This document shows positions 7,353 through 18,007 of a stretch of DNA of 34,105 bases, in pieces. Where the stretch lies: the IMG/VR virus record IMGVR_UViG_3300037060_000006, positions 1 to 34,105 of that record; one strand, written 5' to 3'. A program made the position numbers and the translations under genes. The notes beneath the pieces were generated by a model. It was not told the DNA's origin, did no database searches, and worked only from the letters and a program-made list of their open reading frames with translations. This DNA comes from a virus. Numbering within the stretch: position 1 is the first letter of the stretch; every line of letters starts with the position of its first letter.

Positions 7353-7428
7353 CGCGGAATGGAGAAGCCTGGTCTATCTCGTCTGTCTCATTAACAGAAG
7401 AACGTTGGTTCAAATCCAACTTCCGCCT
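7353..7428 (+). tRNA. tRNA-Met (CAT)
   Basis: Cloverleaf with acceptor CGCGGAA/TTCCGCC, D-arm GAGA..TCTC, anticodon stem TCTGT/ACAGA with loop CTCATTA, T-arm GTTGG-TTCAAAT-CCAAC. The 1:72 pair is a C:C mismatch, as in initiator tRNAs (which have C:A), but the three G:C pairs of an initiator anticodon stem are absent. No CCA encoded. Confidence 0.8.
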
Positions 7429-7688: not shown

Positions 7689-7760
7689 GCCGCTGTAGTG
7701 ATAAAGGCAGCACGGGGAATTGGTATTTCTCCAGACTAGGATCGTTACCTAGCAGTGGCA
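7689..7760 (+). tRNA. tRNA-Thr (GGT)
   Basis: Acceptor GCCGCTG/CAGTGGC, 3-bp D-stem GTG/CAC, anticodon loop TTGGTAT, T-arm CTAGG-ATCGTTA-CCTAG with the unusual A54/T58 loop. The trailer starts CGAAG. Confidence 0.8.
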
Positions 7761-7828
7761 CGAAGGAAGCCGGACGTAGGTATTGTGGGTCCGGTATGTT
7801 GACAGGCTGGGGTTCCTGTTGATACTAT

Positions 7829-7900
7829 GTGTTTGTAGTTCAGTTGGTGGAACGCGGGTTGCCAATCCGAAGGTCGCGAGTTCAAGTCTCGCCAGACACT
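7829..7900 (+). tRNA. tRNA-Gly (GCC)
   Basis: Acceptor GTGTTTG/CAGACAC, D-stem GTTC/GAAC, loop TTGCCAA, T-arm GCGAG-TTCAAGT-CTCGC. The 27:43 pair is a G:A mismatch. No CCA; the trailer is CGAAGT. The spacer before it has a CCGGAC/GTCCGG hairpin. Confidence 0.85.
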
Positions 7901-7998
7901 CGAAGTTGTTTTGCCCGCGCGAAAGAAAATTTGACAGCGGGGGAAACATGCAGTACAGTATTTACGGAAGTGGTCGGACGACAAGCTGCTTCCAACAA

Positions 7999-8069
7999 CG
8001 GGTTGTAGTTAAGTGGTATAACACCTTCCTTCCAAGTAGGTGTCGCGGGTTCGATCCCCGTCTACCCGT
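7999..8069 (+). tRNA. tRNA-Gly (TCC)
   Basis: Acceptor CGGGTTG/CTACCCG with one T:T mismatch, D-stem GTTA/TAAC, anticodon loop CTTCCAA, T-arm GCGGG-TTCGATC-CCCGT. No CCA. The following 179 bases (8070-8248) hold no clear RNA gene; see the rejected list for an open frame there. Confidence 0.85.
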
Positions 8070-8248
8070 CGATGATGTGGCGTGAACAGCTTCATCCGTT
8101 TTACCTAGACGTTACGAGGTACGCAAATGACAGTGGGCTGACGAACTGTTACGTCCTCGGACCTGACTTCCGCAAAAAGTCGCTGCCGAGGGAAGGGTAC
8201 GGAAGGAACCCCTTGCTCGATGTGTTTCACGACACGGCTGAGCGCCAT

Positions 8249-8321
8249 GCTCTATTGGTCTAGTGGAAAGGACGCCAGGTTTTCACCCTGGAGGAGATCG
8301 GGTCAGTACCGATATAGAGTA
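8249..8321 (+). tRNA. tRNA-Glu (TTC)
   Basis: Acceptor GCTCTAT/ATAGAGT, perfect anticodon stem CCAGG/CCTGG with loop TTTTCAC, T-stem ATCGG/CCGAT with the unusual loop GTCAGTA (G54/G58). The trailer is CGAAGT. Confidence 0.85.
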
Positions 8322-8391
8322 CGAAGTCAAACCGAATTGACTTGCACGGTGAGAACGGGGCAACCCTAGTCCGTCGTTAAACAAGGTGACA

Positions 8392-8411
8392 GCCTGGAGA
8401 GACGGGCACAT
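8392..8411 (+). other. GAGAGA-loop leader hairpin before tRNA-Glu (CTC)
   Basis: GCCTG (8392-8396), loop GAGAGA, CGGGC (8403-8407), then ACAT directly before the tRNA. Two other tRNAs have the same loop with changed but still pairing stems (10199-10220, 11518-11535), and all three follow GACA. Confidence 0.6.
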
Positions 8412-8483
8412 GCTGTCATGGTCTAGCGGTCACGACTCCAGATTCTCAATCTGGAAACGGGAGTTCAATTCTCCCTGACAGTA
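8412..8483 (+). tRNA. tRNA-Glu (CTC)
   Basis: Acceptor GCTGTCA/TGACAGT, anticodon stem CCAGA/TCTGG with loop TTCTCAA, T-arm GGGAG-TTCAATT-CTCCC. The leader is a GAGAGA hairpin plus ACAT; the trailer is CGAAGT. Confidence 0.9.
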
Positions 8484-8559
8484 CGAAGTGGGCGCGGGGG
8501 ATACGGAATAGTTTGTACTCCCGCCAGCACGAGGGATAACGACCTGCTACACTTCACAT

Positions 8560-8633
8560 GCTGTTGTGGCCTAAGTGGTAAAGGCGCGTGATTGTCAATC
8601 ACGAGACAGTGGGATCATACCCCATCAGCGGCG
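8560..8633 (+). tRNA. tRNA-Asp (GTC)
   Basis: Acceptor GCTGTTG/CAGCGGC, D-stem GCCT/AGGC, anticodon stem CGTGA/TCACG with loop TTGTCAA, T-arm GTGGG-ATCATAC-CCCAT (A54/T58). The spacer before it starts GAAGTG (8485) and ends CACTTC before ACAT, so it can close on itself. Confidence 0.9.
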
Positions 8634-8637
8634 CGAA

Positions 8638-8709
8638 GGAGAAGGTGCAGGTTCGAGTCCTGTCTGCGGGGGGAAACCCTTGTGGTAGCTTAACTGGCAG
8701 AGCGTCTTC
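8638..8709 (+). other. Permuted tRNA-like element with GAAA-capped acceptor stem
   Basis: The segments of a tRNA occur in the order 3' half then 5' half: GGAGA (8638-8642, as 39-43), AGGT, T-arm GCAGG-TTCGAGT-CCTGT, acceptor 3' CTGCGGG (8664-8670), a GAAA-looped link, acceptor 5' CTTGTGG (8679-8685), TA, D-arm GCTT..GAGC with GG in the loop, G, and TCTTC (8705-8709), which pairs with GGAGA. Acceptor pairing is 7/7, counting four wobbles. It could instead be two remnant halves of tRNAs. There is no acceptor end as written. Confidence 0.4.
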
Positions 8710-8776
8710 CGTGATCTCCGTTTTCCCCTCCTTGAATTTTTGGGTCGGGGGAGCAAGAAGCAGTAAGAAGTATCAA

Positions 8777-8850
8777 CGGGCACTATTATAGTGGCAGAAT
8801 CTTAGGTTTGGAACCTTTGGGCGTACGTTCGATTCGTACGTGCCCGACCA
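8777..8850 (+). tRNA. tRNA-Pro (TGG)
   Basis: Perfect acceptor CGGGCAC/GTGCCCG, anticodon loop TTTGGAA (three good stem pairs), T-arm GTACG-TTCGATT-CGTAC, encoded ACCA (8847-8850), then GGAAGTAGG. Confidence 0.85.
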
Positions 8851-8944
8851 GGAAGTAGGTCCAAGTCCATACTTGGATCCCCAGAAGCGGATTACGTAAC
8901 GCGGGGGATTGGTGTAACATGGGGTAAGCACGACTAACTGACAT

Positions 8945-9017
8945 TGACTTGTGGCGCAATCGGTAGCGCGGCGCTCTCTTAAAGCGAAGGTTGTGGGATC
9001 GTTCCCCACCAGGTCAA
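8945..9017 (+). tRNA. tRNA-Lys (CTT)
   Basis: Acceptor TGACTTG/CAGGTCA, D-stem GCGC/GCGC, anticodon loop CTCTTAA, T-arm GTGGG-ATCGTTC-CCCAC (A54/T58). The trailer is CGAAGT. Confidence 0.85.
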
Positions 9018-9028
9018 CGAAGTATCAT

Positions 9029-9103
9029 CCCCTTGTAACTCAGTCTGGCCAGAGTGGAATCCTTTTAAGATTACGGGCGGGCGTTCAAATCGCTCCGGGG
9101 GGA
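9029..9103 (+). tRNA. tRNA-Lys (TTT)
   Basis: Acceptor CCCCTTG/CGGGGGG, D-stem ACTC/GAGT, anticodon loop CTTTTAA on a 4-bp stem plus G:A, T-arm GGGCG-TTCAAAT-CGCTC. No CCA. Confidence 0.85.
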
Positions 9104-9125
9104 CTAGTAGTAAGAAGTGAATCAT

Positions 9126-9197
9126 TGCCTAGTAGCTCAGTGGCAGAGCAGGAAGCCGTTAACTTCTTGGCCGGGGGTTCGAACCCCTCTTAGGCAG
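9126..9197 (+). tRNA. tRNA-Asn (GTT)
   Basis: Acceptor TGCCTAG/TTAGGCA, D-stem GCTC/GAGC, anticodon stem GGAAG/CTTCT with loop CCGTTAA, T-arm GGGGG-TTCGAAC-CCCTC. Position 33 is C instead of the near-universal U. The spacer after it (9198-9278) has a CATC-TTCG-GATG hairpin and a CGAGG/CCTCG hairpin. Confidence 0.85.
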
Positions 9198-9278
9198 CGA
9201 GAGGTACCCTACGACATCTTCGGATGCAGGTGACCGCTAGTACGAGGAAGTCCATCCTCGACCTCAAAACGGGTACAT

Positions 9279-9362
9279 CGAGCGGTAGTCTAAGTGGATA
9301 AAAGCGTTACGCTGTAAACGTAATTTCTTCGGAATACGGGGGTTCGAATCCCTCTCGCTCGA
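9279..9362 (+). tRNA. tRNA-Tyr (GTA)
   Basis: Acceptor CGAGCGG/TCGCTCG, anticodon stem TTACG/CGTAA with loop CTGTAAA, a class II variable arm with a TTCG loop, T-arm GGGGG-TTCGAAT-CCCTC. Confidence 0.9.
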
Positions 9363-9456
9363 CTAGGGTGTTTAGCTATACGTGAAACTCGTATGAAGCG
9401 GCCCTACTACTTGAAGATTTACCCCCGGTCCCAAAAAATCGGGGCGCAGTAAACAT

Positions 9457-9528
9457 ACGAGCGTGGCATGACAGGAAAGCAAGTGCCTCCAAAACACTGA
9501 TATGGGAGTTCGATTCTCTCCGCTTGTG
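9457..9528 (+). tRNA. tRNA-Trp (CCA)
   Basis: Acceptor ACGAGCG/CGCTTGT, anticodon loop CTCCAAA on AGTG/CACT, T-arm GGGAG-TTCGATT-CTCTC. The leader is a CCCCG/CGGGG hairpin and AAACAT; the trailer is CGAAGT. Confidence 0.85.
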
Positions 9529-9617
9529 CGAAGTAAGTCTCATCAGATTCTTATGATTTAGACTTGCATCCTAGTAGTAAATGCGGTAGGATTCAGTTGA
9601 GTAGTTAGGAGGACACT

Positions 9618-9809
9618 TTGACTGATGAAGTAGAAGAGGATCGCCACACAAGGATCGACGTGTATCACCACTTTGGTGAAGATATTGAGAACCTCGTAGC
9701 AACTCTCACGAAGCTTCTGTCTTCCCCGATTGTGATTGATATCACGGTCTCGGCAGACGGAGTACCAACAGCATTAACCGTAATTTTCGGTACACCCGAG
9801 AACAACTAG
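9618..9809 (+). CDS. Hypothetical protein inside the tRNA array, 63 aa
   Basis: TTG at 9618 lies 5 bases after a strong AGGAGG (9607-9612); the only nearby ATG is out of frame. An acidic N-terminus, a helical middle (about 18-36) and a beta-strand-rich end. It is 9 bases upstream of gene 9819-10163, forming a two-gene unit embedded between tRNA-Trp and tRNA-His. Family not recognised; by position it may work with the Ig-like protein that follows. Confidence 0.7.
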   Translation: MTDEVEEDRHTRIDVYHHFGEDIENLVATLTKLLSSPIVIDITVSADGVPTALTVIFGTPENN

Positions 9810-9818
9810 GAGAGAAAC

Positions 9819-10163
9819 ATGGCTGATGTACTATTACTAGACAACCAGAACGTCACGGGGACAGTAGCCCTCACTGACGCGGCTGGAAATGCAGTACTGA
9901 GTTCGGCCCTCGATGCCGGTAGCCTTGCAGTTACCTTCACTGATCCGACGCAGTTCACGGTAACCATTGCCGCAGACCAGTCTTCCTTCGACGTTCAGTC
10001 AGTTGGAACGCTGGAGACGGGTGACACGGGTACGGTAACGGCAACCGCTGGCGGCGTTCCTTTGAATGGCCCTGGTGGAACTCCGTTCACCTTCACCGTT
10101 GATGTTGCCGCTGGCCCGCCAGTAAGCATCGGTGTTTCCTTCGGAGCACCAGTAGCCAACTAG
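9819..10163 (+). CDS. Ig-like domain protein, 114 aa
   Basis: ATG 9819 follows AGGAGAG at 4 bases. The whole product is Ala/Thr/Val/Gly-rich with alternating beta pattern (VTGTVALTDAAGNAV, QFTVTIAADQSSFDVQSVG, TGTVTATAGG, FTFTVDVAAG), typical of bacterial Ig-like (BIG-type) domains. In phages such proteins decorate capsids or tails and bind surfaces by weak adhesion. No signal peptide. Being in the tRNA array rather than the virion operon is unusual for a structural protein. Confidence 0.7.
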   Translation: MADVLLLDNQNVTGTVALTDAAGNAVLSSALDAGSLAVTFTDPTQFTVTIAADQSSFDVQSVGTLETGDTGTVTATAGGVPLNGPGGTPFTFTVDVAAGPPVSIGVSFGAPVAN

Positions 10164-10198
10164 ATTTTTAGGGAACGCCGCCGATGTCAGGCGTGACA

Positions 10199-10220
10199 GC
10201 TCGGAGAGACGAGCAAACAT
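10199..10220 (+). other. GAGAGA-loop leader hairpin before tRNA-His
   Basis: GCTCG (10199-10203), loop GAGAGA, CGAGC (10210-10214), then AAACAT. Same loop as 8392-8411 and 11518-11535 with compensatory stem changes. Confidence 0.6.
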
Positions 10221-10292
10221 GGTGGATGTAGTTTAGTGGCAAAACCCAGGGTCGTGGTCCCTGTGTCGGGAGTCCGATTCTCCTCGCCCACC
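10221..10292 (+). tRNA. tRNA-His (GTG)
   Basis: The extra G at -1 (10221) can pair with discriminator C73, the histidine identity pair. Acceptor GTGGATG/CGCCCAC with one A:C, anticodon stem CAGGG/CCCTG with loop TCGTGGT (C33 instead of U33), T-arm GGGAG-TCCGATT-CTCCT. The trailer is CGAAGT. Confidence 0.9.
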
Positions 10293-10356
10293 CGAAGTTG
10301 TACAAGATGGCAGAAGTTCACGGAAAACGTGAGTTACCGCCAACAAGAACAAACAT

Positions 10357-10429
10357 TGTGGAGTAGCTCAGCAGGTAGAGCATTCGTCTGATACGCGAAA
10401 CGTCGTGGGTTCAAGTCCCGCTTCCACAA
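10357..10429 (+). tRNA. tRNA-Ile (GAT)
   Basis: Acceptor TGTGGAG/TTCCACA, D-stem GCTC/GAGC, anticodon stem TTCGT/GCGAA with loop CTGATAC, T-arm GTGGG-TTCAAGT-CCCGC. The leader is AAACAT. Confidence 0.9.
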
Positions 10430-10499
10430 CGATGCAGGGAGATCCAGGAGAGTCACCTGGGCCTTCGGGTTAGCTCAAGTGTAAAGAGCCCCTGTATTG
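10430..10499 (+). other. Permuted tRNA-like element with UUCG-capped acceptor stem
   Basis: Fills the gap between tRNA-Ile and tRNA-Arg. A 10-bp closing stem (10430-10439 with 10490-10499, two wobbles) contains GCAGG and CCTGT at the anticodon-stem positions, then a 5-nt variable segment GAGAT, T-arm CCAGG-AGAGTCA-CCTGG, GCC-TTCG-GGT as a capped acceptor stem, TA, D-arm GCTC-AAGTGTAAA-GAGC and one linker base. All linker lengths equal those of a tRNA, in permuted order. Function unknown; it could be a decayed or structural RNA. Confidence 0.45.
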
Positions 10500-10502
10500 C
10501 TT

Positions 10503-10575
10503 CTCCTTGTAGTTCAATGGACAAGAACGATGGTTTACGGAACCATCGATGGGGGTTCGAATCCCTCCGGGGAGA
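10503..10575 (+). tRNA. tRNA-Arg (ACG)
   Basis: Acceptor CTCCTTG/CGGGGAG, D-stem GTTC/GAAC, anticodon stem ATGGT/ACCAT with loop TTACGGA, T-arm GGGGG-TTCGAAT-CCCTC. A34 implies that a TadA-type deaminase makes inosine. The trailer CGAAGTAGTAAAGT equals that of tRNA-Thr (CGT) except that the latter has CCA. Confidence 0.9.
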
Positions 10576-10591
10576 CGAAGTAGTAAAGTAT

Positions 10592-10663
10592 GGTCGCCTA
10601 ACTCAGAAGCAGAGTGCCACTCTTACAAAGTGGAAGTCGTGATGGCAGAATTCACGGTGACTA
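10592..10663 (+). tRNA. tRNA-Val (TAC)
   Basis: Acceptor GGTCGCC/GGTGACT, D-stem ACTC/GAGT, perfect anticodon stem CCACT/AGTGG with loop CTTACAA. The T-arm is odd: GTGAT-GGCAGAA-TTCAC, four pairs plus T:T, and a G54/G58 loop. The T-arm sequence is almost repeated in the spacer at 10306-10323. The trailer is CGAAG. Confidence 0.75.
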
Positions 10664-10730
10664 CGAAGGATGGCGGCGGGTACACTAGTATCGGCAGTCT
10701 AATTCACCTCCCCCGCTAATGGGGGAACAT

Positions 10731-10806
10731 GGTTCTGTAGCTCAGTTGGAAGAGCGTCCCGTTGAAGCCGGGAAGGCCGTCAGATCGTTTCTGACTGGAA
10801 CCACCA
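10731..10806 (+). tRNA. tRNA-Phe (GAA)
   Basis: Acceptor GGTTCTG/TGGAACC, D-stem GCTC/GAGC, anticodon stem TCCCG/CGGGA with loop TTGAAGC, T-arm GTCAG-ATCGTTT-CTGAC (A54/T58), encoded ACCA. The leader hairpin is CCCCC-GCTAAT-GGGGG, then AACAT. Confidence 0.9.
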
Positions 10807-10887
10807 CGACAGTCAGCTTTTTCTCGCGCGGGAAAAGGTAAGTGCAGGGGTTATGCCCCTCAAGGGAATGGATTTCCCGGCTGTCGA
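10807..10887 (+). other. tRNA-like cloverleaf (TAT loop), possibly decayed
   Basis: Starts at the base after the CCA of tRNA-Phe. Acceptor-like CGACAGT (10807-10813) with GCTGTCG (10880-10886), T-arm-like GGGA-ATGGATT-TCCC directly inside it, an AGGG/CCCT arm with loop GTTATGC (TAT after T33), and in place of the D-arm a 9-bp hairpin CTTTTTCTC-GCGC-GGGAAAAGG. The variable region is nearly absent. Probably not a working tRNA-Ile. Confidence 0.35.
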
Positions 10888-10893
10888 TTACTT

Positions 10894-10965
10894 GGGGATT
10901 TAGTGATAAAGGAAGCACAAATCCGTGGCACGGATTAGGAGACGGATCGTTACCGTCATTCTCCA
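10894..10965 (+). tRNA. tRNA-Ala (GGC)
   Basis: Acceptor GGGGATT/ATTCTCC with one T:T, 3-bp D-stem GTG/CAC as in tRNA-Thr (GGT), perfect anticodon stem AATCC/GGATT with loop GTGGCAC, T-arm GACGG-ATCGTTA-CCGTC (A54/T58). It lacks the G3:U70 pair in the strict position (position 3:70 is G:T here when counted from 10894), consistent with alanine identity. Confidence 0.8.
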
Positions 10966-10981
10966 CTAGCAGTACAAACTC

Positions 10982-11054
10982 GGGCGGGTAACTCAGTTGG
11001 TAGAGTGCCTCTTTTGCAAGGAGGAAGCCGCAGGTTCAAATCCTGTTCTGTCCA
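10982..11054 (+). tRNA. tRNA-Ala (TGC)
   Basis: Acceptor GGGCGGG/TCTGTCC with G3:T70, the alanine identity pair; D-stem ACTC/GAGT, anticodon stem CCTCT/GGAGG with loop TTTGCAA, T-arm GCAGG-TTCAAAT-CCTGT. Discriminator A. Confidence 0.9.
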
Positions 11055-11156
11055 CCGTTGGTAGTTTAAGCTGTCGTCAGGTATCGGGCGAGCAGCACTA
11101 GAACCCTGGCCTCTAAGCAAGGCCGGTGATGCAGGGGAAGATCCTGACCCTACGGA
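11055..11156 (+). other. tRNA-like structure with enlarged D-loop (AAG loop)
   Basis: Follows tRNA-Ala directly. CCGTTGG (11055-11061) pairs with CCTACGG (11149-11155) at 6 of 7, then TA, GTTT (11064-11067) with GAAC (11101-11104) around a 33-base loop that itself contains GCTG/CAGC, a 5- to 7-bp anticodon-type stem GGCCT/AGGCC with loop CTAAGCA, and a T-arm-like CAGG-GGAAGAT-CCTG. It may be a decayed tRNA-Leu with an insertion; not called as functional. Confidence 0.35.
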
Positions 11157-11175
11157 TTTTTTGTAGTACCGTTAT

Positions 11176-11248
11176 CCCCTCGTAGCCCAACGGCAGAGGC
11201 AATCGGTTTAAGCCCGATGTAGTGTCAGTTCAAATCTGACTGGGGGGA
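11176..11248 (+). tRNA. tRNA with anticodon TAA (Leu codon UUA)
   Basis: Acceptor CCCCTCG/TGGGGGG, anticodon stem ATCGG/CCGAT with loop TTTAAGC, T-arm GTCAG-TTCAAAT-CTGAC. By anticodon it reads UUA, but the variable region is only 5 bases, whereas bacterial leucine tRNAs, including the other three here, have a long variable arm. The trailer is CGAAGT. Confidence 0.75.
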
Positions 11249-11290
11249 CGAAGTATTTAGACGCCATTAAGTGACGAGGATACTTCACAT

Positions 11291-11377
11291 GCTCGTGTGG
11301 TGGAATTGCCAGACACGCTTGCCTTAGGAGCAAGTGCTAGAGATAGCGTGAGAGTTGGAGTCTCTCCATGAGTACCA
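11291..11377 (+). tRNA. tRNA-Leu (TAG)
   Basis: Class II: acceptor GCTCGTG/CATGAGT, anticodon stem CTTGC/GCAAG with loop CTTAGGA, long variable arm, T-arm GAGAG-TTGGAGT-CTCTC, encoded ACCA. The spacer before it begins GAAGTAT (11250) and ends ATACTTC before ACAT. Confidence 0.9.
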
Positions 11378-11379
11378 AT

Positions 11380-11461
11380 AGGCGTATGGCGAAATTGGCA
11401 GACGCGCATACTTGAGTAGTATGTCCCGCGAGGGGTAGGAGTTCAAGTCTCCTTATGCCTA
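11380..11461 (+). tRNA. tRNA-Leu (GAG)
   Basis: Class II: acceptor AGGCGTA/TATGCCT, anticodon stem CATAC/GTATG with loop TTGAGTA, variable arm with CCC/GGGG, T-arm AGGAG-TTCAAGT-CTCCT. Only 2 bases after the CCA of the previous tRNA. The trailer is CGAAGT. Confidence 0.9.
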
Positions 11462-11517
11462 CGAAGTGGAAGTTTCTAGAGACGACCATTTTGCAACCTC
11501 GGCGGATCGGGGCGACA

Positions 11518-11535
11518 GTCGGAGAGACGACACAT
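11518..11535 (+). other. GAGAGA-loop leader hairpin before tRNA-Cys
   Basis: GTCG (11518-11521), loop GAGAGA, CGAC (11528-11531), then ACAT. Third copy of the family at 8392 and 10199. Confidence 0.6.
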
Positions 11536-11608
11536 CGCGCGGTGTCCGAGCCTGGTTAGGTAGGTCTCTGCAAAAGATCTTACACGGGTCCGAATCCCGT
11601 CTGCGCGT
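11536..11608 (+). tRNA. tRNA-Cys (GCA)
   Basis: Acceptor CGCGCGG/CTGCGCG, anticodon stem GGTCT/AGATC with loop CTGCAAA, T-arm ACGGG-TCCGAAT-CCCGT, discriminator T (U73 is the cysteine identity base). The trailer is CGAAGT. Confidence 0.9.
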
Positions 11609-11612
11609 CGAA

Positions 11613-11655
11613 GTGGTAATATCCCCACATTGTACATTGTGGTAATATCCCCACA
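11613..11655 (+). repeat. 17-bp direct repeat between tRNA-Cys and tRNA-Ser (TGA)
   Basis: The same 17 bases, starting GTGGTAATATCC, occur at 11613-11629 and 11639-11655. Each copy can fold (GTGG with CCAC), and the second directly precedes the leader of the serine tRNA. Confidence 0.85.
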
Positions 11656-11658
11656 CAT

Positions 11659-11741
11659 GGAGTATGAACCTGGAGAGTCCGGGAGCTGTTTTGAAAACAG
11701 ATGAGTCCGCAAGGACAGGGGGGCAGGACCTCCGTGCTCCG
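11659..11741 (+). tRNA. tRNA-Ser (TGA)
   Basis: Class II: acceptor GGAGTAT/GTGCTCC, CTGT/ACAG with loop TTTGAAA, long variable arm GTCC-GCAA-GGAC, T-stem GGGG/CCTC with loop GGCAGGA (G54/G58), discriminator G. Confidence 0.85.
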
Positions 11742-11825
11742 CTGTTCATGATCGTGAAGTTTTTGTTGTGTTAGGGTTATTTTCTCCCCGCCGCGACAAA
11801 AATCTTCGCGGGCGTGAAGAAACAT

Positions 11826-11910
11826 GGAAGGTGAACTCGCAGGGTGCGGGTACCCGTTGGAAGCGGAGTAGGTCTGGCAATGGACTGGTTTTCGAGTAAT
11901 CCGCCTTCCG
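11826..11910 (+). tRNA. tRNA-Ser (GGA)
   Basis: Class II: acceptor GGAAGGT/GCCTTCC, anticodon loop TTGGAAG on a 6-bp stem with one bulged A (TACCCG/CGGAGTA), long variable arm, T-loop TTCGAGT, discriminator G. Confidence 0.8.
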
Positions 11911-11983
11911 CGATGTGATGATTTGATCACATTGATGCTTCGTTTTCCCCCGAATAGGGGGGAATGTGAAGATATCACCACAT

Positions 11984-12066
11984 GGAAGATAAACCGGGCG
12001 GGGCTCGGGAGGGTTTCGAAAACCCTACGGAGGTAACACTCTGGGAATCGTGTTCTCTGTCTTCCG
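11984..12066 (+). tRNA. tRNA-Ser (CGA)
   Basis: Class II: acceptor GGAAGAT/GTCTTCC, perfect anticodon stem AGGGT/ACCCT with loop TTCGAAA, long variable arm, T-loop ATCGTGT (A54/T58), discriminator G. The leader hairpin is GTGA-AGATA-TCAC before CACAT. Confidence 0.85.
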
Positions 12067-12128
12067 CTTGTTCCAATATTAACACATTTGACTTTACTCC
12101 CCGAGTGTGCTAATTTAGGCACAAACAT

Positions 12129-12208
12129 TCCCTAGTGGCGTAATCGGTAGGCGCGGCATCCTCAAAAGGTGCTTCTTAGGAGTTCGAGTTCGAGTCTCGA
12201 CTGGGGAA
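12129..12208 (+). tRNA. tRNA-Leu (CAA)
   Basis: Acceptor TCCCTAG/CTGGGGA, anticodon stem GCATC/GGTGC with loop CTCAAAA, variable arm of intermediate length, T-arm TCGAG-TTCGAGT-CTCGA. The leader hairpin is GTGC/GCAC plus AAACAT. Confidence 0.9.
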
Positions 12209-12234
12209 CAATGGAAAGGCTAGTAGGATCGAAG

Positions 12235-12363
12235 ATGACTAGGTATTTCGGCAAGGTTCCTTCAGGATTCGGGCTTTTCTATACTTATCCAATTCCCCGC
12301 CGAACGGTAAAACGGCGCGAGGAAAGACAGTGGAGGCGTGATGAGCAGAACAGTGAGAAGTAA
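12235..12363 (+). CDS. Small basic hypothetical protein, 42 aa
   Basis: ATG 12235 has AGGA 6 bases upstream. The product starts MTRYFGKVPSGFG, has an aromatic YTYP stretch and ends in a highly charged Arg/Glu-rich helix. It overlaps the next small gene by 23 bases, a coupling often seen in phage small genes. It lies between tRNA-Leu and tRNA-Gln. Family not recognised, and the short length leaves room for doubt. Confidence 0.45.
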   Translation: MTRYFGKVPSGFGLFYTYPIPRRTVKRREERQWRRDEQNSEK

Positions 12364-12481
12364 GGGATACGGGATCTGTCCTGACGGGCATGACTGTGAG
12401 TGGTGCAGACCACGCGATAAGTACCTGAAGCGTTTTTTGGGCCGAGCGAAAAGAATCAAGAGTAGTGTAGTAACGCAGTAA
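12341..12481 (+). CDS. Small zinc-motif protein, 46 aa
   Basis: ATG 12341 sits 4 bases after GGAGG, a strong ribosome binding site. The product contains CPDGHDCEWC (residues 13-22), a compact Cys/His motif that could bind one metal ion, then a Lys/Arg-rich tail. The codon pattern and signal support a real gene. It is in the tRNA array, 5 bases before tRNA-Gln (TTG). Function unknown. Confidence 0.6.
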   Translation: MSRTVRSKGYGICPDGHDCEWCRPRDKYLKRFLGRAKRIKSSVVTQ

Positions 12482-12485
12482 CCAT

Positions 12486-12556
12486 TCAAGGATCGTTTAG
12501 CGGCAGGACGACTGTTTTTGGGGCAGTTCACGGTGGTTCAAATCCATCTCCTTGAG
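12486..12556 (+). tRNA. tRNA-Gln (TTG)
   Basis: Perfect acceptor TCAAGGA/TCCTTGA, anticodon stem ACTGT/GCAGT with loop TTTTGGG, T-arm GGTGG-TTCAAAT-CCATC. The trailer is CGAAGT. Confidence 0.9.
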
Positions 12557-12568
12557 CGAAGTAACCAT

Positions 12569-12651
12569 GGAAGATGGACTCGCAAGGCGCGAGACATCCC
12601 TGCTAAGGATTGTGAGCCGCAAGGCTTAGGAATCGTGTTCTTCGTCTTCCG
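12569..12651 (+). tRNA. tRNA-Ser (GCT)
   Basis: Class II: acceptor GGAAGAT/GTCTTCC, anticodon loop CTGCTAA on ATCC/GGAT, variable arm with AGCC/GGCT, T-loop ATCGTGT (A54/T58), discriminator G. Confidence 0.85.
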
Positions 12652-12723
12652 CGTAGTAAGCAGTATTTTGCCAGTTAGAAGCTTAAGCAGCAATATATTG
12701 CAACATTTTGTGTATTACAGCAT

Positions 12724-12793
12724 TCCCCGTTGGTGTAAAGCAGCACTGATCCCTCTGAAGGATTTAGTCCGAGTGCGAGTCTTGGGTGGGGAG
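12724..12793 (+). tRNA. tRNA-Gln (CTG)
   Basis: Acceptor TCCCCGT/GTGGGGA, 3-bp D-stem GTG/CAC, anticodon stem GATCC/GGATT with loop CTCTGAA, T-arm CCGAG-TGCGAGT-CTTGG. Confidence 0.85.
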
Positions 12794-12807
12794 CAAAGAA
12801 GTACAAT

Positions 12808-12883
12808 CGGTGTGTAGCTCAGGGGACAGAGCGGCAGAGTTCTAACCTGCGCGTCGGGCGTCCGAATCGCCCCACATCGACCA
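12808..12883 (+). tRNA. tRNA-Arg (TCT)
   Basis: Acceptor CGGTGTG/CACATCG, D-stem GCTC/GAGC, anticodon loop GTTCTAA on GCAG/CTGC, T-arm GGGCG-TCCGAAT-CGCCC, encoded ACCA. Confidence 0.9.
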
Positions 12884-12884
12884 T

Positions 12885-12955
12885 ACGTCTGCCAGCGGTC
12901 TGGGCCGAGGTTTCATAAGCCTTGAGAGAAGAATCGTCATCTTCCTGACGTACCA
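12885..12955 (+). tRNA. tRNA with CAT anticodon and reduced D-arm
   Basis: One base after the previous CCA. Acceptor ACGTCTG/CTGACGT (one T:T), anticodon stem GAGGT/GCCTT with loop TTCATAA, T-arm GAAGA-ATCGTCA-TCTTC (A54/T58), encoded ACCA. The whole D region is 12 bases, at best CCAG-CGGT-CTGG. It could be tRNA-Ile2 (if C34 is lysidinylated) or a second tRNA-Met. Standard searches may miss it. Confidence 0.6.
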
Positions 12956-12956
12956 T

Positions 12957-13035
12957 GGATAGGAAGTTCTGCTGGTTGCGGACGACGATCTTATAAATCG
13001 TTCCTAGGTGGGCTCGATCCCCGCACTATCCACCA
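12957..13035 (+). tRNA. tRNA-Ile (TAT)
   Basis: Acceptor GGATAGG/ACTATCC (7:66 mismatch), D-stem GTTC/GGAC with a 10-base loop, perfect anticodon stem ACGAT/ATCGT with loop CTTATAA, T-stem GTGGG/CCCGC with loop CTCGATC, encoded ACCA. Reads AUA. Last tRNA of the array. Confidence 0.85.
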
Positions 13036-15298: not shown

Positions 15299-18007
15299 AT
15301 GGCCCTCAATGTAGGTGAATTTCTTGCTTCGGCTGTAAATCCGGGCGAAGTAGATACCTTCTCCTTGATGGGCTACGAACCAACTGCACGACAGAAGATA
15401 TTTCACGAACAGTCTCGTAATGGCATAGATCGCATTCTTTTTGGTGGAGCTGCCTCTGGTGGAAAAGAGATCCTGACCAGGGAATATATACCAACGCCCG
15501 AAGGCTGGGTTCCCATGAAGGATATTCATGTTGGTGACCAAGTTTTTGGACGTGATGGAAATGCGTACACGGTTCTATATGAGTCGCCTGTCCATCACCA
15601 CGATGCCTACATGCTTACCTTTGATGATGGTTCAACTGCTACTGTCAATGACGAGCACCTTTGGCTCACTTATGACAACAAAGAACTAGGGCAACTCACT
15701 CGTCTAGATCCCGAATGGCGAGCACGCCGACAGGCTCGACGTAAGGACAAGGGGATTTCTGGTAACAAGAGCCAAAAGTTCTCTGAATCTTTGAGCAAGC
15801 GCAATGCAGAGAGAGAATATTCCTACAAGGACGTTCCCACCGGGACGGTTCGCACTACTGCCGAAATAATGGCTACCCTAAAAACTGAGAGCGGTCGTGG
15901 AAATCACGCTGTTCCAGTGTGTGCTCCAGTCCAGTTGGCCCCAAAGAATCTTTCCATTGATCCCTACACCTTGGGTGCATGGCTAGGAGATGGCATCTCC
16001 AGTGCTGGCACGGTGTGTGGAATAGACGATGGTGTTTTTGACAACATATCCCTCTCATTTCCCGAAATTGTACGCCGTGGTGAAAAAAGTGGATGCCAGA
16101 TTGTCCGATTTGAAGGACTTTATGGGGCGCTGAAATCTTCTGGTCTACTCGGCAATAAGCATATTCCCGAAGAATACCTATGGTCATCGGTCGAGCAGCG
16201 TCTCGCACTTGTGCAGGGTCTTATGGACACTGATGGTAATATTCTGACCAACGGCTCTGCCGAATTCGTAAACACCAATGAGCAGATTGTACGTGGGTTG
16301 GCACAAATTCTCCGCTCCCTTGGTCACAAGGTCAATGTTCGTGAATTTCGCACCAAACTGAACGGAAAAGACTGCGGACCAGCATGGCGAATCAAGTTTC
16401 GTCCCAAGTTTCCAGTTTTCCGTCTTGCCCGCAAAGCTGAGCGTCTTCAGATCGAAAAGAACACTCGACGCGGCGATTTTCGCTACATCGTTTCTGCCGA
16501 ATATGTTGGCAAAGAAGATATGAAGTGCATCGAAGTCAACTCTCCCGATCACCTCTATCTCTGCACCGAGAACTTCATTCCTACGCACAATACAGCCGCC
16601 ATGATCCAAGACGCAATCTGGTTCGCTATGAACTATCCAAAGATTCGAATTGGGATGCACCGTAAGTCGTATCCAGAGCTAGACGAGTCGTTGATTCGTG
16701 AATTAGCAAACTGGGATTATGCTCGAAAGCTTGGAGCACGTTGGAACAAAACCGCCAAAGCTTTGACTTTTCCAAATGGTTCAGTCATCTTGTTCAAGTT
16801 TGCTGAGACCATCGCTGACGCATCAAAGATTCAGGGTGGTGAGTACAACCTCTGGTATTTTGACGAGTCAGCTCTCACAGATCCAAGGGTTATTCAACGA
16901 CTTGAAGAGCGTCTTCGTTCCAGAACACCAACCATTCCGGTATTCGGAAGTCGTGCAGGCTCAAACCCTGGCGGCATAGGCGCTCAGTATTACAAAGACA
17001 CTTACATTAAGCCCACTGACTATGGGCGTGTAATACATGAAGAGACTGTTGGCGAAGGTGATTACGTAGTAACTCACCAGTACTCGTTCATCTGGTCAAG
17101 AATTGATGACAACCCGTACGTTGACATTGGTTACAAAGCCACTCTTATGGCTATTCCAGATCCTGCCCGTCGAGCTGCAATGCTTGAGGGAGACTGGGAT
17201 GTTTCCGAAGGTCAGTTCTTCACTCAGTGGAGTCGTACTCGCCACGTAATTCCAAAAGAAGATACGTTCAACATTCCTATGGAATGGCAGCGTTATGCTG
17301 GAGTTGACTACGGGATCCACGACGCATGGGCGGTTCTGTGGATTGCCCTCGACAACAACAACCGCATGTGGGGATACCGTGAGTATTGCATCTCTGGTGT
17401 CATGGCTCCTCAACAGGCACAACTCATTCTTGCCGCCGAAGTCGAGGCGAAAGAAGGCTCTGTAGTTCACGTTGCCGACCCTTCAATGTGGGGACAACGC
17501 GGAACTCCGTACTCCATTGCCGATATCTACGGTCTGGAAGGTGTTGGTCTGCTTAAGGCGAACAATGACCGCGTGACTGGTTGGTCACTGTGTCATCAGC
17601 GCCTCAACGAAGGCCCGATCTGTGAGTACCACCAACACAAGAAAGACCTGGGACTTTGGCACGAGAATACTTGCCCGATGTTCCATGTTTTCGAGTCGGC
17701 ATGCCCTAATTTCATTGAGACGATTCCAGCACTTCCTCGCGACGATGTTCGTCCCGACGATGCAAAAACTCGTAACGTAGAAGACCACATGGCTGACGCT
17801 TGGCGTTATGTCAATATGTACGCAGGCAACTATGCCAGTCCGGTTCTCTATGATGATTACTCTCCCCCTACTGCTAAGCAGATCTTTGATCGGATGCAAT
17901 CGCGTCCTGCTGTTGATTATTCTCAGCCAACAAAGATTGGCATGAGCGCTGAGGGATTCTTTTTCCCCGCTGACCTAAATGATCCATCTAGCCGAGGAGG
18001 ATGGTAG
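15299..18007 (+). CDS. terL: Terminase large subunit precursor containing an intein, 902 aa
   Basis: Packaging ATPase and nuclease. The Walker A motif GGAASGGK (49-56) is split from its Thr (432) by an intein (57-431). After splicing, a 527-aa TerL results. Walker B is LWYFDESAL (Asp522-Glu523 in the precursor). The RNase H-type nuclease has Asp670 (GVDYG), a VADPS segment and Asp833 (DHMADAWRY). No strong ribosome binding site precedes ATG 15299; translation may be coupled to the gene ending at 15295. The stop shares a base with the portal start. Without splicing the ATPase would be dead. Confidence 0.95.
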   Translation: MALNVGEFLASAVNPGEVDTFSLMGYEPTARQKIFHEQSRNGIDRILFGGAASGGKEILTREYIPTPEGWVPMKDIHVGDQVFGRDGNAYTVLYESPVHHHDAYMLTFDDGSTATVNDEHLWLTYDNKELGQLTRLDPEWRARRQARRKDKGISGNKSQKFSESLSKRNAEREYSYKDVPTGTVRTTAEIMATLKTESGRGNHAVPVCAPVQLAPKNLSIDPYTLGAWLGDGISSAGTVCGIDDGVFDNISLSFPEIVRRGEKSGCQIVRFEGLYGALKSSGLLGNKHIPEEYLWSSVEQRLALVQGLMDTDGNILTNGSAEFVNTNEQIVRGLAQILRSLGHKVNVREFRTKLNGKDCGPAWRIKFRPKFPVFRLARKAERLQIEKNTRRGDFRYIVSAEYVGKEDMKCIEVNSPDHLYLCTENFIPTHNTAAMIQDAIWFAMNYPKIRIGMHRKSYPELDESLIRELANWDYARKLGARWNKTAKALTFPNGSVILFKFAETIADASKIQGGEYNLWYFDESALTDPRVIQRLEERLRSRTPTIPVFGSRAGSNPGGIGAQYYKDTYIKPTDYGRVIHEETVGEGDYVVTHQYSFIWSRIDDNPYVDIGYKATLMAIPDPARRAAMLEGDWDVSEGQFFTQWSRTRHVIPKEDTFNIPMEWQRYAGVDYGIHDAWAVLWIALDNNNRMWGYREYCISGVMAPQQAQLILAAEVEAKEGSVVHVADPSMWGQRGTPYSIADIYGLEGVGLLKANNDRVTGWSLCHQRLNEGPICEYHQHKKDLGLWHENTCPMFHVFESACPNFIETIPALPRDDVRPDDAKTRNVEDHMADAWRYVNMYAGNYASPVLYDDYSPPTAKQIFDRMQSRPAVDYSQPTKIGMSAEGFFFPADLNDPSSRGGW
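15467..16591 (+). mobile_element. Intein with LAGLIDADG endonuclease, class 3 type, in terL
   Basis: 375 residues (precursor 57-431). Block A ILTREYIPTPEGW follows Glu as residue 1, where Cys or Ser is usual. Class 3 signature residues are present: Trp122 (NDEHLW), Cys410 (MKCIEV) and Thr429 before the terminal His-Asn, with Thr432 as +1. Two LAGLIDADG motifs, LGAWLGDGI (225-233) and LVQGLMDTDG (304-313), keep their acidic residues, so homing activity is plausible. Boundaries rest on the conserved P-loop and the HN|T junction. Confidence 0.9.

Follow-up and report, generated by a model that had tools for sequence, protein, structure and literature searches.

Few parts of tRNA are more conserved than the elbow, which is recognized by RNase P, RNase Z, the CCA-adding enzyme, the ribosome and modification enzymes. 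In the canonical elbow, a trans Watson–Crick/Hoogsteen pair between U54 and A58 closes the T-loop, G18 is intercalated and bonded to residue 55, and G19 is paired with C56 (PMC4810234). The closest described departure is eukaryotic tRNA-Ala(AGC), which carries A54/A58 together with R15/A48 and R60 (R, purine), a combination stated not to have been seen in bacteria or archaea (Westhof et al. 2020, PMC7566577). The elbow variants described here, seen in the tRNA array of a phage (IMG/VR virus record IMGVR_UViG_3300037060_000006; the whole stretch of 34,105 nucleotides is referred to as the window), resemble tRNA-Ala(AGC) in that exchange at 54–58 is linked to residue 48 and a purine at position 60, and the A54/A58 state itself is also found in phages. 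Whereas tRNA-Ala(AGC) is a single eukaryotic isoacceptor with A54/A58 only, the exchange here involves many phage isoacceptors and some bacterial tRNAs, includes A-U and G-G pairs, and is joined by exchanges at 18–55 and 19–56. A purine-purine 54–58 pair is likewise present in eukaryotic initiator tRNA-Met (A54/A58), but the tRNAs described here are elongators, among whose variants A-U and G-G prevail. In 2003 Zagryadskaya et al. reportedly obtained E. coli suppressor tRNAs with G54-A58 or G54-G58, those with G54-G58 working, in a laboratory selection that is said not to have included A54-U58. The G54-G58 substitute is common to those suppressors and the present tRNAs, whereas G54-A58 was absent from all 1,396 natural viral tRNAs compiled below. 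Subscription literature and tRNA databases aside, no open-access paper was found that reports A54-U58, G54-G58, A18-G55 or A19-U56 in natural tRNAs, or that describes such elbow variants in phages or bacteria.

Eleven tRNA genes of the array, all on the plus strand, have residues 54 and 58 exchanged together, eight to A54/T58 and three to G54/G58, as the original prediction had proposed from the sequence. A scan scoring structure only, together with explicit pairing, ruled out misplacement of the T-arms. The scan, which has no term for 54 or 58, recovered A54/T58 in tRNA-Thr(GGT) (7689..7760; T-loop ATCGTTA), tRNA-Asp(GTC) (8560..8633; ATCATAC), tRNA-Lys(CTT) (8945..9017; ATCGTTC), tRNA-Phe(GAA) (10731..10803; ATCGTTT), tRNA-Ala(GGC) (10894..10965; ATCGTTA) and a second CAT tRNA, CAT-2 (12885..12952; ATCGTCA), as well as G54/G58 in tRNA-Glu(TTC) (8249..8321; GTCAGTA). 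CAT-2 is a weak call with a score of 15.5 and a poor D-stem. The remaining four genes were placed by explicit pairing of the acceptor and T-stem, and each has one T-stem mismatch: tRNA-Ser(CGA) (11984..12066) and tRNA-Ser(GCT) (12569..12651), both with A54/T58 (ATCGTGT) and A53-T61, and tRNA-Ser(TGA) (11659..11741; GGCAGGA) and tRNA-Val(TAC) (10592..10663; GGCAGAA, with a T53.T61 mismatch), both combining G54/G58 with A18-G55. Judged as elongator cloverleaves the genes have the expected 7-bp acceptor stem, 5-bp anticodon and T stems, 7-nt T-loop, T33 and cognate anticodon. Further departures from the canonical elbow (U54-A58, G18-U55, G19-C56, Y60; Y, pyrimidine), overlooked in the first reading as was the A18-G55 of Val and Ser(TGA), were recovered by the cloverleaf scan. 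These are C54/A58 in tRNA-Ile(TAT) (12957..13032; CTCGATC), A18-G55 beside T54/A58 in tRNA-Gln(CTG) (12724..12793; TGCGAGT, D-loop AAAGCA), and C19-G56 in place of G19-C56 beside T54/A58 in tRNA-Leu(TAG) (11291..11374; TTGGAGT, D-loop AATTGCCAG).

A pattern consisting of a common D-arm and an A54/T58 T-arm matched at least 120 stretches in viral contigs; control viral contigs were sampled with that D-arm combined with T54/A58. The contigs were read with a second scanner that scores none of the D- and T-loop bases and gave 0 hits on shuffled loci at the thresholds used. With the tRNAs that had brought the contigs in excluded, 1,396 distinct, non-redundant viral tRNAs remained, in which residues 54/58 were T-A in 1256, A-T in 79, G-G in 31, A-A in 18 and other in 12. 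The half-changed states T-T, G-A and T-G were nearly absent. Mutual information between 54 and 58 was 0.41 bits, compared with a maximum of 0.022 in 1,000 within-isotype shuffles, while the control pairs 54–56 and 56–58 were flat. The A-T state was spread over 25 anticodons and 43–44 contigs and the G-G state over 18 anticodons, although isotypes were uneven, with A-T led by Asp and Lys and G-G by Glu and Thr. Stem scores were equal across all 54/58 classes, and T33, C56, R57 and G53-C61 were as well kept as in canonical tRNAs; with normal stems and C56, R57 and G53-C61 conserved, the variants do not have the look of decaying copies. Among cultured phages, Arthrobacter phage Atuin (OK040794.2), which infects A. 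globiformis NRRL B-2979, carries a tRNA-Glu(CTC) with A54/U58 and a tRNA-His and tRNA-Asp with A54/A58; the tRNAs read from T4, Annadreamy, CR9 and AS-zj were all canonical at 54/58. The variants also expose a blind spot in annotation. ARAGORN recovered 1253/1256 of the T-A tRNAs but missed most of those with G-G (11/31 recovered) and many with G55 (32/59 recovered). Routine finders therefore under-call the variants, and published counts of phage tRNAs are likely to be low.

The exchange is not confined to 54–58. In tRNAs with a 7-nt D-loop, where positions 18 and 19 are unambiguous, the 18×55 combinations were G-T 242, A-G 16 and G-C 5, and those at 19×56 were G-C 254, A-T 8 and C-G 1, with the cross pairs 18×56 and 19×55 flat. 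For all loop lengths, A18-G19 occurred in 48/59 tRNAs with G55 against 16/1337 others, G18-A19 in 27/28 with T56 against 21/1368 others, and C19 in 3/3 with G56, the Leu(TAG) of the window among them. At 18–55 the substitution is thus A18-G55 for G18-U55, and at 19–56 it is A19-U56, C19-G56 or U19-A56 for G19-C56. These changes accompany those at 54–58: G55 was found in 34/140 non-T-A tRNAs and in 25/1256 with T-A, A60 in 2% of T-A tRNAs against 62–83% of the A-T, G-G and A-A classes, and A48 in 7% of T-A tRNAs against 29–60% of the variant classes. At 60 and 48 the A replaces a pyrimidine (Y60 and Y48). Since 18–55, 19–56, 60 and 48 shift along with 54–58, the elbow changes as a set. The coupling to 60 and 48 described for tRNA-Ala(AGC) recurs in part in the viral A-A tRNAs (A60 in 83%, A48 in 60%) and A-T tRNAs (62% and 40%), though it is not always complete and lies outside tRNA-Ala. 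For A18-G55 the parallel is found in the UGNRA T-loops, or lonepair triloops, of rRNA and riboswitches, where the G and an A from outside the loop pair to give a composite GNRA fold (PMC2258182). A sequence of U54, G55, C56, R57 and A58 with a docked A18 would fit such a loop, and those 48/59 tRNAs with G55 have the external A18 followed by G19 in place of the usual GG.

Relatives of the phage were viral contigs found by terminase and portal searches, with protein identities of 77–98%. Syntenic tRNA arrays were present in 5/8 of the related records tested, with the same mixture of T-A, A-T and G-G states, yet in other isoacceptors. Some states are shared: Thr(GGT) is A-T in the window and in relatives L017 and L019, Asp is also A-T in L019, Phe has the same state in L007, the Glu(TTC) of L017 is identical, and an identical copy of CAT-2 is present in L001. 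Others differ between orthologues. The acceptor stem of Gly(GCC) is identical between the window, where the gene is T-A, and L007, where it is A-T. For Asn the window has T-A, L007 A-T (ATCATAC) and L017 G-G with G55 (GGCAGGA), and the L007 and L017 genes match in the acceptor stem and in almost the whole D-arm. Thus 54 and 58 switch jointly, and repeatedly. These arrays and the viral tRNA counts ruled out independent variation of the two positions, and the occurrence in five relatives, many other viral contigs and some cells ruled out a quirk of one phage. The tRNA-Ala(GGC) of the window appears chimeric, combining an acceptor shared with its orthologues and a D-arm and T-loop that resemble those of the array's tRNA-Thr(GGT), which suggests, from sequence, exchange of an elbow module. 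No close annotated relative was found by megablast or portal tblastn, annotated phages giving only distant matches, to the sheath and for the most part from Gordonia and Brevibacterium phages, and a scan with a portal alignment returned no further relatives.

The same D-arm and A54/T58 pattern matched at least 113 stretches in bacterial and archaeal genomes. In a Kiritimatiellaeota genome, the regions of the 42 Rfam hits yielded 40 tRNAs, of which the sole tRNA-His has A54-U58 and the other 39 T-A, while in an Erysipelotrichaceae genome (29 of 40 tRNAs read) it is tRNA-Phe that has A54-U58. Overall, cellular A54-U58 was seen in His of Kiritimatiellae and relatives, Phe of Erysipelotrichaceae, Gly-CCC of Bacteroidales and Thr of Hadesarchaea. 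Given that the only tRNA-His found in the Kiritimatiellaeota genome is of this form, A54-U58 is compatible with essential translation and a device restricted to phages is ruled out. Excluding two centre genomes picked for having A54/T58, the pattern was found in 0/298 Pseudomonadota and 0/295 Actinomycetota genomes; by comparison, the canonical pattern gave 180 matches in 21 Pseudomonadota genomes (8.6 per genome). In two genome contigs (L247 and L254) the tRNA arrays are dense and rich in G-G and GGCAGNN T-loops, and the gene ends encode CCA; these contigs possibly derive from prophages or from phage contigs binned with their hosts.

The original prediction had taken the concerted exchange to suggest a selected alternative T-loop. 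As 54 and 58 change in concert, in relatives and unrelated phages alike, and the cloverleaf stays intact, selection on the T-loop fold is the natural reading of this exchange. The explanation favoured here, to which we assign a probability of about 0.75, is that these tRNAs function and that compensatory, structure-preserving change has rebuilt their elbow, tolerated since they depend less on modification. Its footing is what was computed directly, namely the covariation, its breadth, the intact stems, the orthologous switches and the use of a variant in a cellular tRNA. The U54-A58 pair closing the T-loop would give way to A54-U58, G54-G58 or A54-A58, in most cases accompanied by A60 and frequently by A48, in pair geometries that we infer. 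A54-U58 as a plain swap of a trans Watson–Crick/Hoogsteen pair is not isosteric with it. A54-A58 may be a stepping stone from U-A to A-U. Replacement of G18-U55 by A18-G55 would, with C56 and R57, form a composite GNRA-like loop as in the UGNRA T-loops of other RNAs, and the 19–56 exchanges to A-U, C-G or U-A would retain a Watson–Crick pair. Selection would in this way preserve the three-dimensional elbow and not its sequence, and variant elbows would then spread between phages through gene exchange among tRNA arrays. U54, U55 and A58 are the target bases of TrmA, TruB and TrmI, respectively. With these bases lost, escape from modification is automatic, whether or not it is the cause, and phage tRNAs, being short-acting and less reliant on these host enzymes, would be free to drift with a relaxed need for modification and presumably at no cost in fitness.

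Some points weigh against compensatory rebuilding. The shuffles used for the 54–58 mutual information take no account of sequence relatedness, although A-T still occurs in 43–44 contigs and 25 anticodons. The non-T-A share is 23/103 in this phage family against 11/409 in the control viral contigs (odds ratio 10, p 5e-10), an enrichment that uniform relaxation does not explain.

This roughly tenfold enrichment speaks for a reading in which altered elbows would shield some phage tRNAs from a tRNase, of the host or of a rival, or from another elbow-reading factor that recognizes U54, U55, A58 or G18-G19, with the mosaic of each array reflecting nucleases specific for single isoacceptors. Such adaptive escape is unlikely, but is the strongest of the alternatives. 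Escape from anticodon nucleases through changes in the anticodon loop is established for phage tRNAs (van den Berg et al. 2023, PMC10264068), and the elbow variants would be similar in differing from host tRNAs at a site possibly read by an enzyme. A T-loop-cutting tRNase exists in CdiA-CT E479, which acts on tRNA2-Arg (PMC9086364), and Cas12a3, which cleaves the CCA tail, also contacts the T-arm, although at the backbone (PMC12851939). The inequality of isotypes and the near absence of the A54/T58 form from cells of two large phyla also speak for escape. Unlike the anticodon-loop changes, however, those at the elbow are tied to no known nuclease, and the evasion of a host nuclease or modification enzyme that the original prediction had put forward found no support. 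No matching factor was identified; essential cellular tRNAs use A54-U58, which is thus an alternative that works in general and does not prove an arms race; and most tRNAs of each array keep T54/A58 and are therefore still exposed to any general T-loop enzyme, a patchiness that speaks against a general T-loop nuclease. A further version, also improbable, is that counter-defence operates through diversified, mutually compensated elbow codes for each isoacceptor, so that no single host enzyme that reads U54, U55, A58 or the G19-C56 face could inactivate the whole tRNA set or block its processing; if true, elbow codes would open a second front in tRNA-based immunity, next to that at the anticodon loop. 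Should host enzymes read elbow bases at all, the elbow would be added to the sites where phages and tRNA-directed defences are known to clash.

Capture of the variant loops with cellular tRNA genes, from lineages that have them, is very improbable. Several such lineages exist, but each sampled one has about one affected isoacceptor, compared with the 25 (A-T) and 18 (G-G) viral anticodons; the viral forms typically have A60 and A48, whereas most cellular ones have C60 or G60, and the states switch inside one phage family. Degeneration into non-functional, unconstrained copies, to which the single T-stem mismatches, the weak D-stem of CAT-2 and the apparent tRNA-like remnants in spacers might point, is scarcely credible and largely refuted, as the changes are paired and not random, the half-changed states are nearly absent, and stem scores, T33, C56, R57 and G53-C61 match those of canonical tRNAs.

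Phage tRNAs supply hundreds of natural elbow solutions with contacts exchanged in matched sets, by which what the elbow must be could be separated from what it usually is, and the roles of m5U54, pseudouridine-55 and m1A58 tested.

The record itself (34.1 kb) belongs to a phage with a contractile tail and includes genes for terminase, portal, major head and sheath. An internal stretch of the terminase large subunit gene (15299–18007) breaks the terminase match and also matches helicase-loader and primase profiles; it is probably an intein, judging from these matches. The tRNAs of the array were confirmed, but its extent was revised, as it starts at 7353 and not at 7689, and ends at 13032. It comprises about 36 genes on the plus strand, for all 20 amino acids, with small open reading frames in between. 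This count combines the pairing-based cloverleaf scanner, with 54 and 58 unscored, and explicit placement of the remaining genes; ARAGORN found 28 tRNAs and Rfam 23–28, with matches on most of the array. Two ARAGORN calls within 12808–12902 of the window, a tRNA-Pyl(CTA) on the plus strand and a tRNA-Arg(TCG) on the minus strand, are miscalls, the real gene being tRNA-Arg(TCT) at 12808–12880. Spacers at 8637–8720 and 10464–10500 contain stretches resembling tRNA halves (e.g. ggttcgagtcc and ttagctcaagtgtaaagagc), which are possibly remnants of lost tRNA genes.

Encoded 3’ ends were compared for 127 distinct tRNAs from the window, L001, L007, L017 and L019. The base after position 73 is C in 127/127, the second is mostly G or T and C in only 32/127, and the third is A in 107/127, such that the ends are CGA, CCA or CTA and not CCA throughout. 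Immediately upstream of position 1, the prevailing three bases are CAT (C in 100, A in 108 and T in 111 of the 127), and short hairpins with a GAGAGA-like loop were seen by eye ahead of several tRNA genes in the same arrays.

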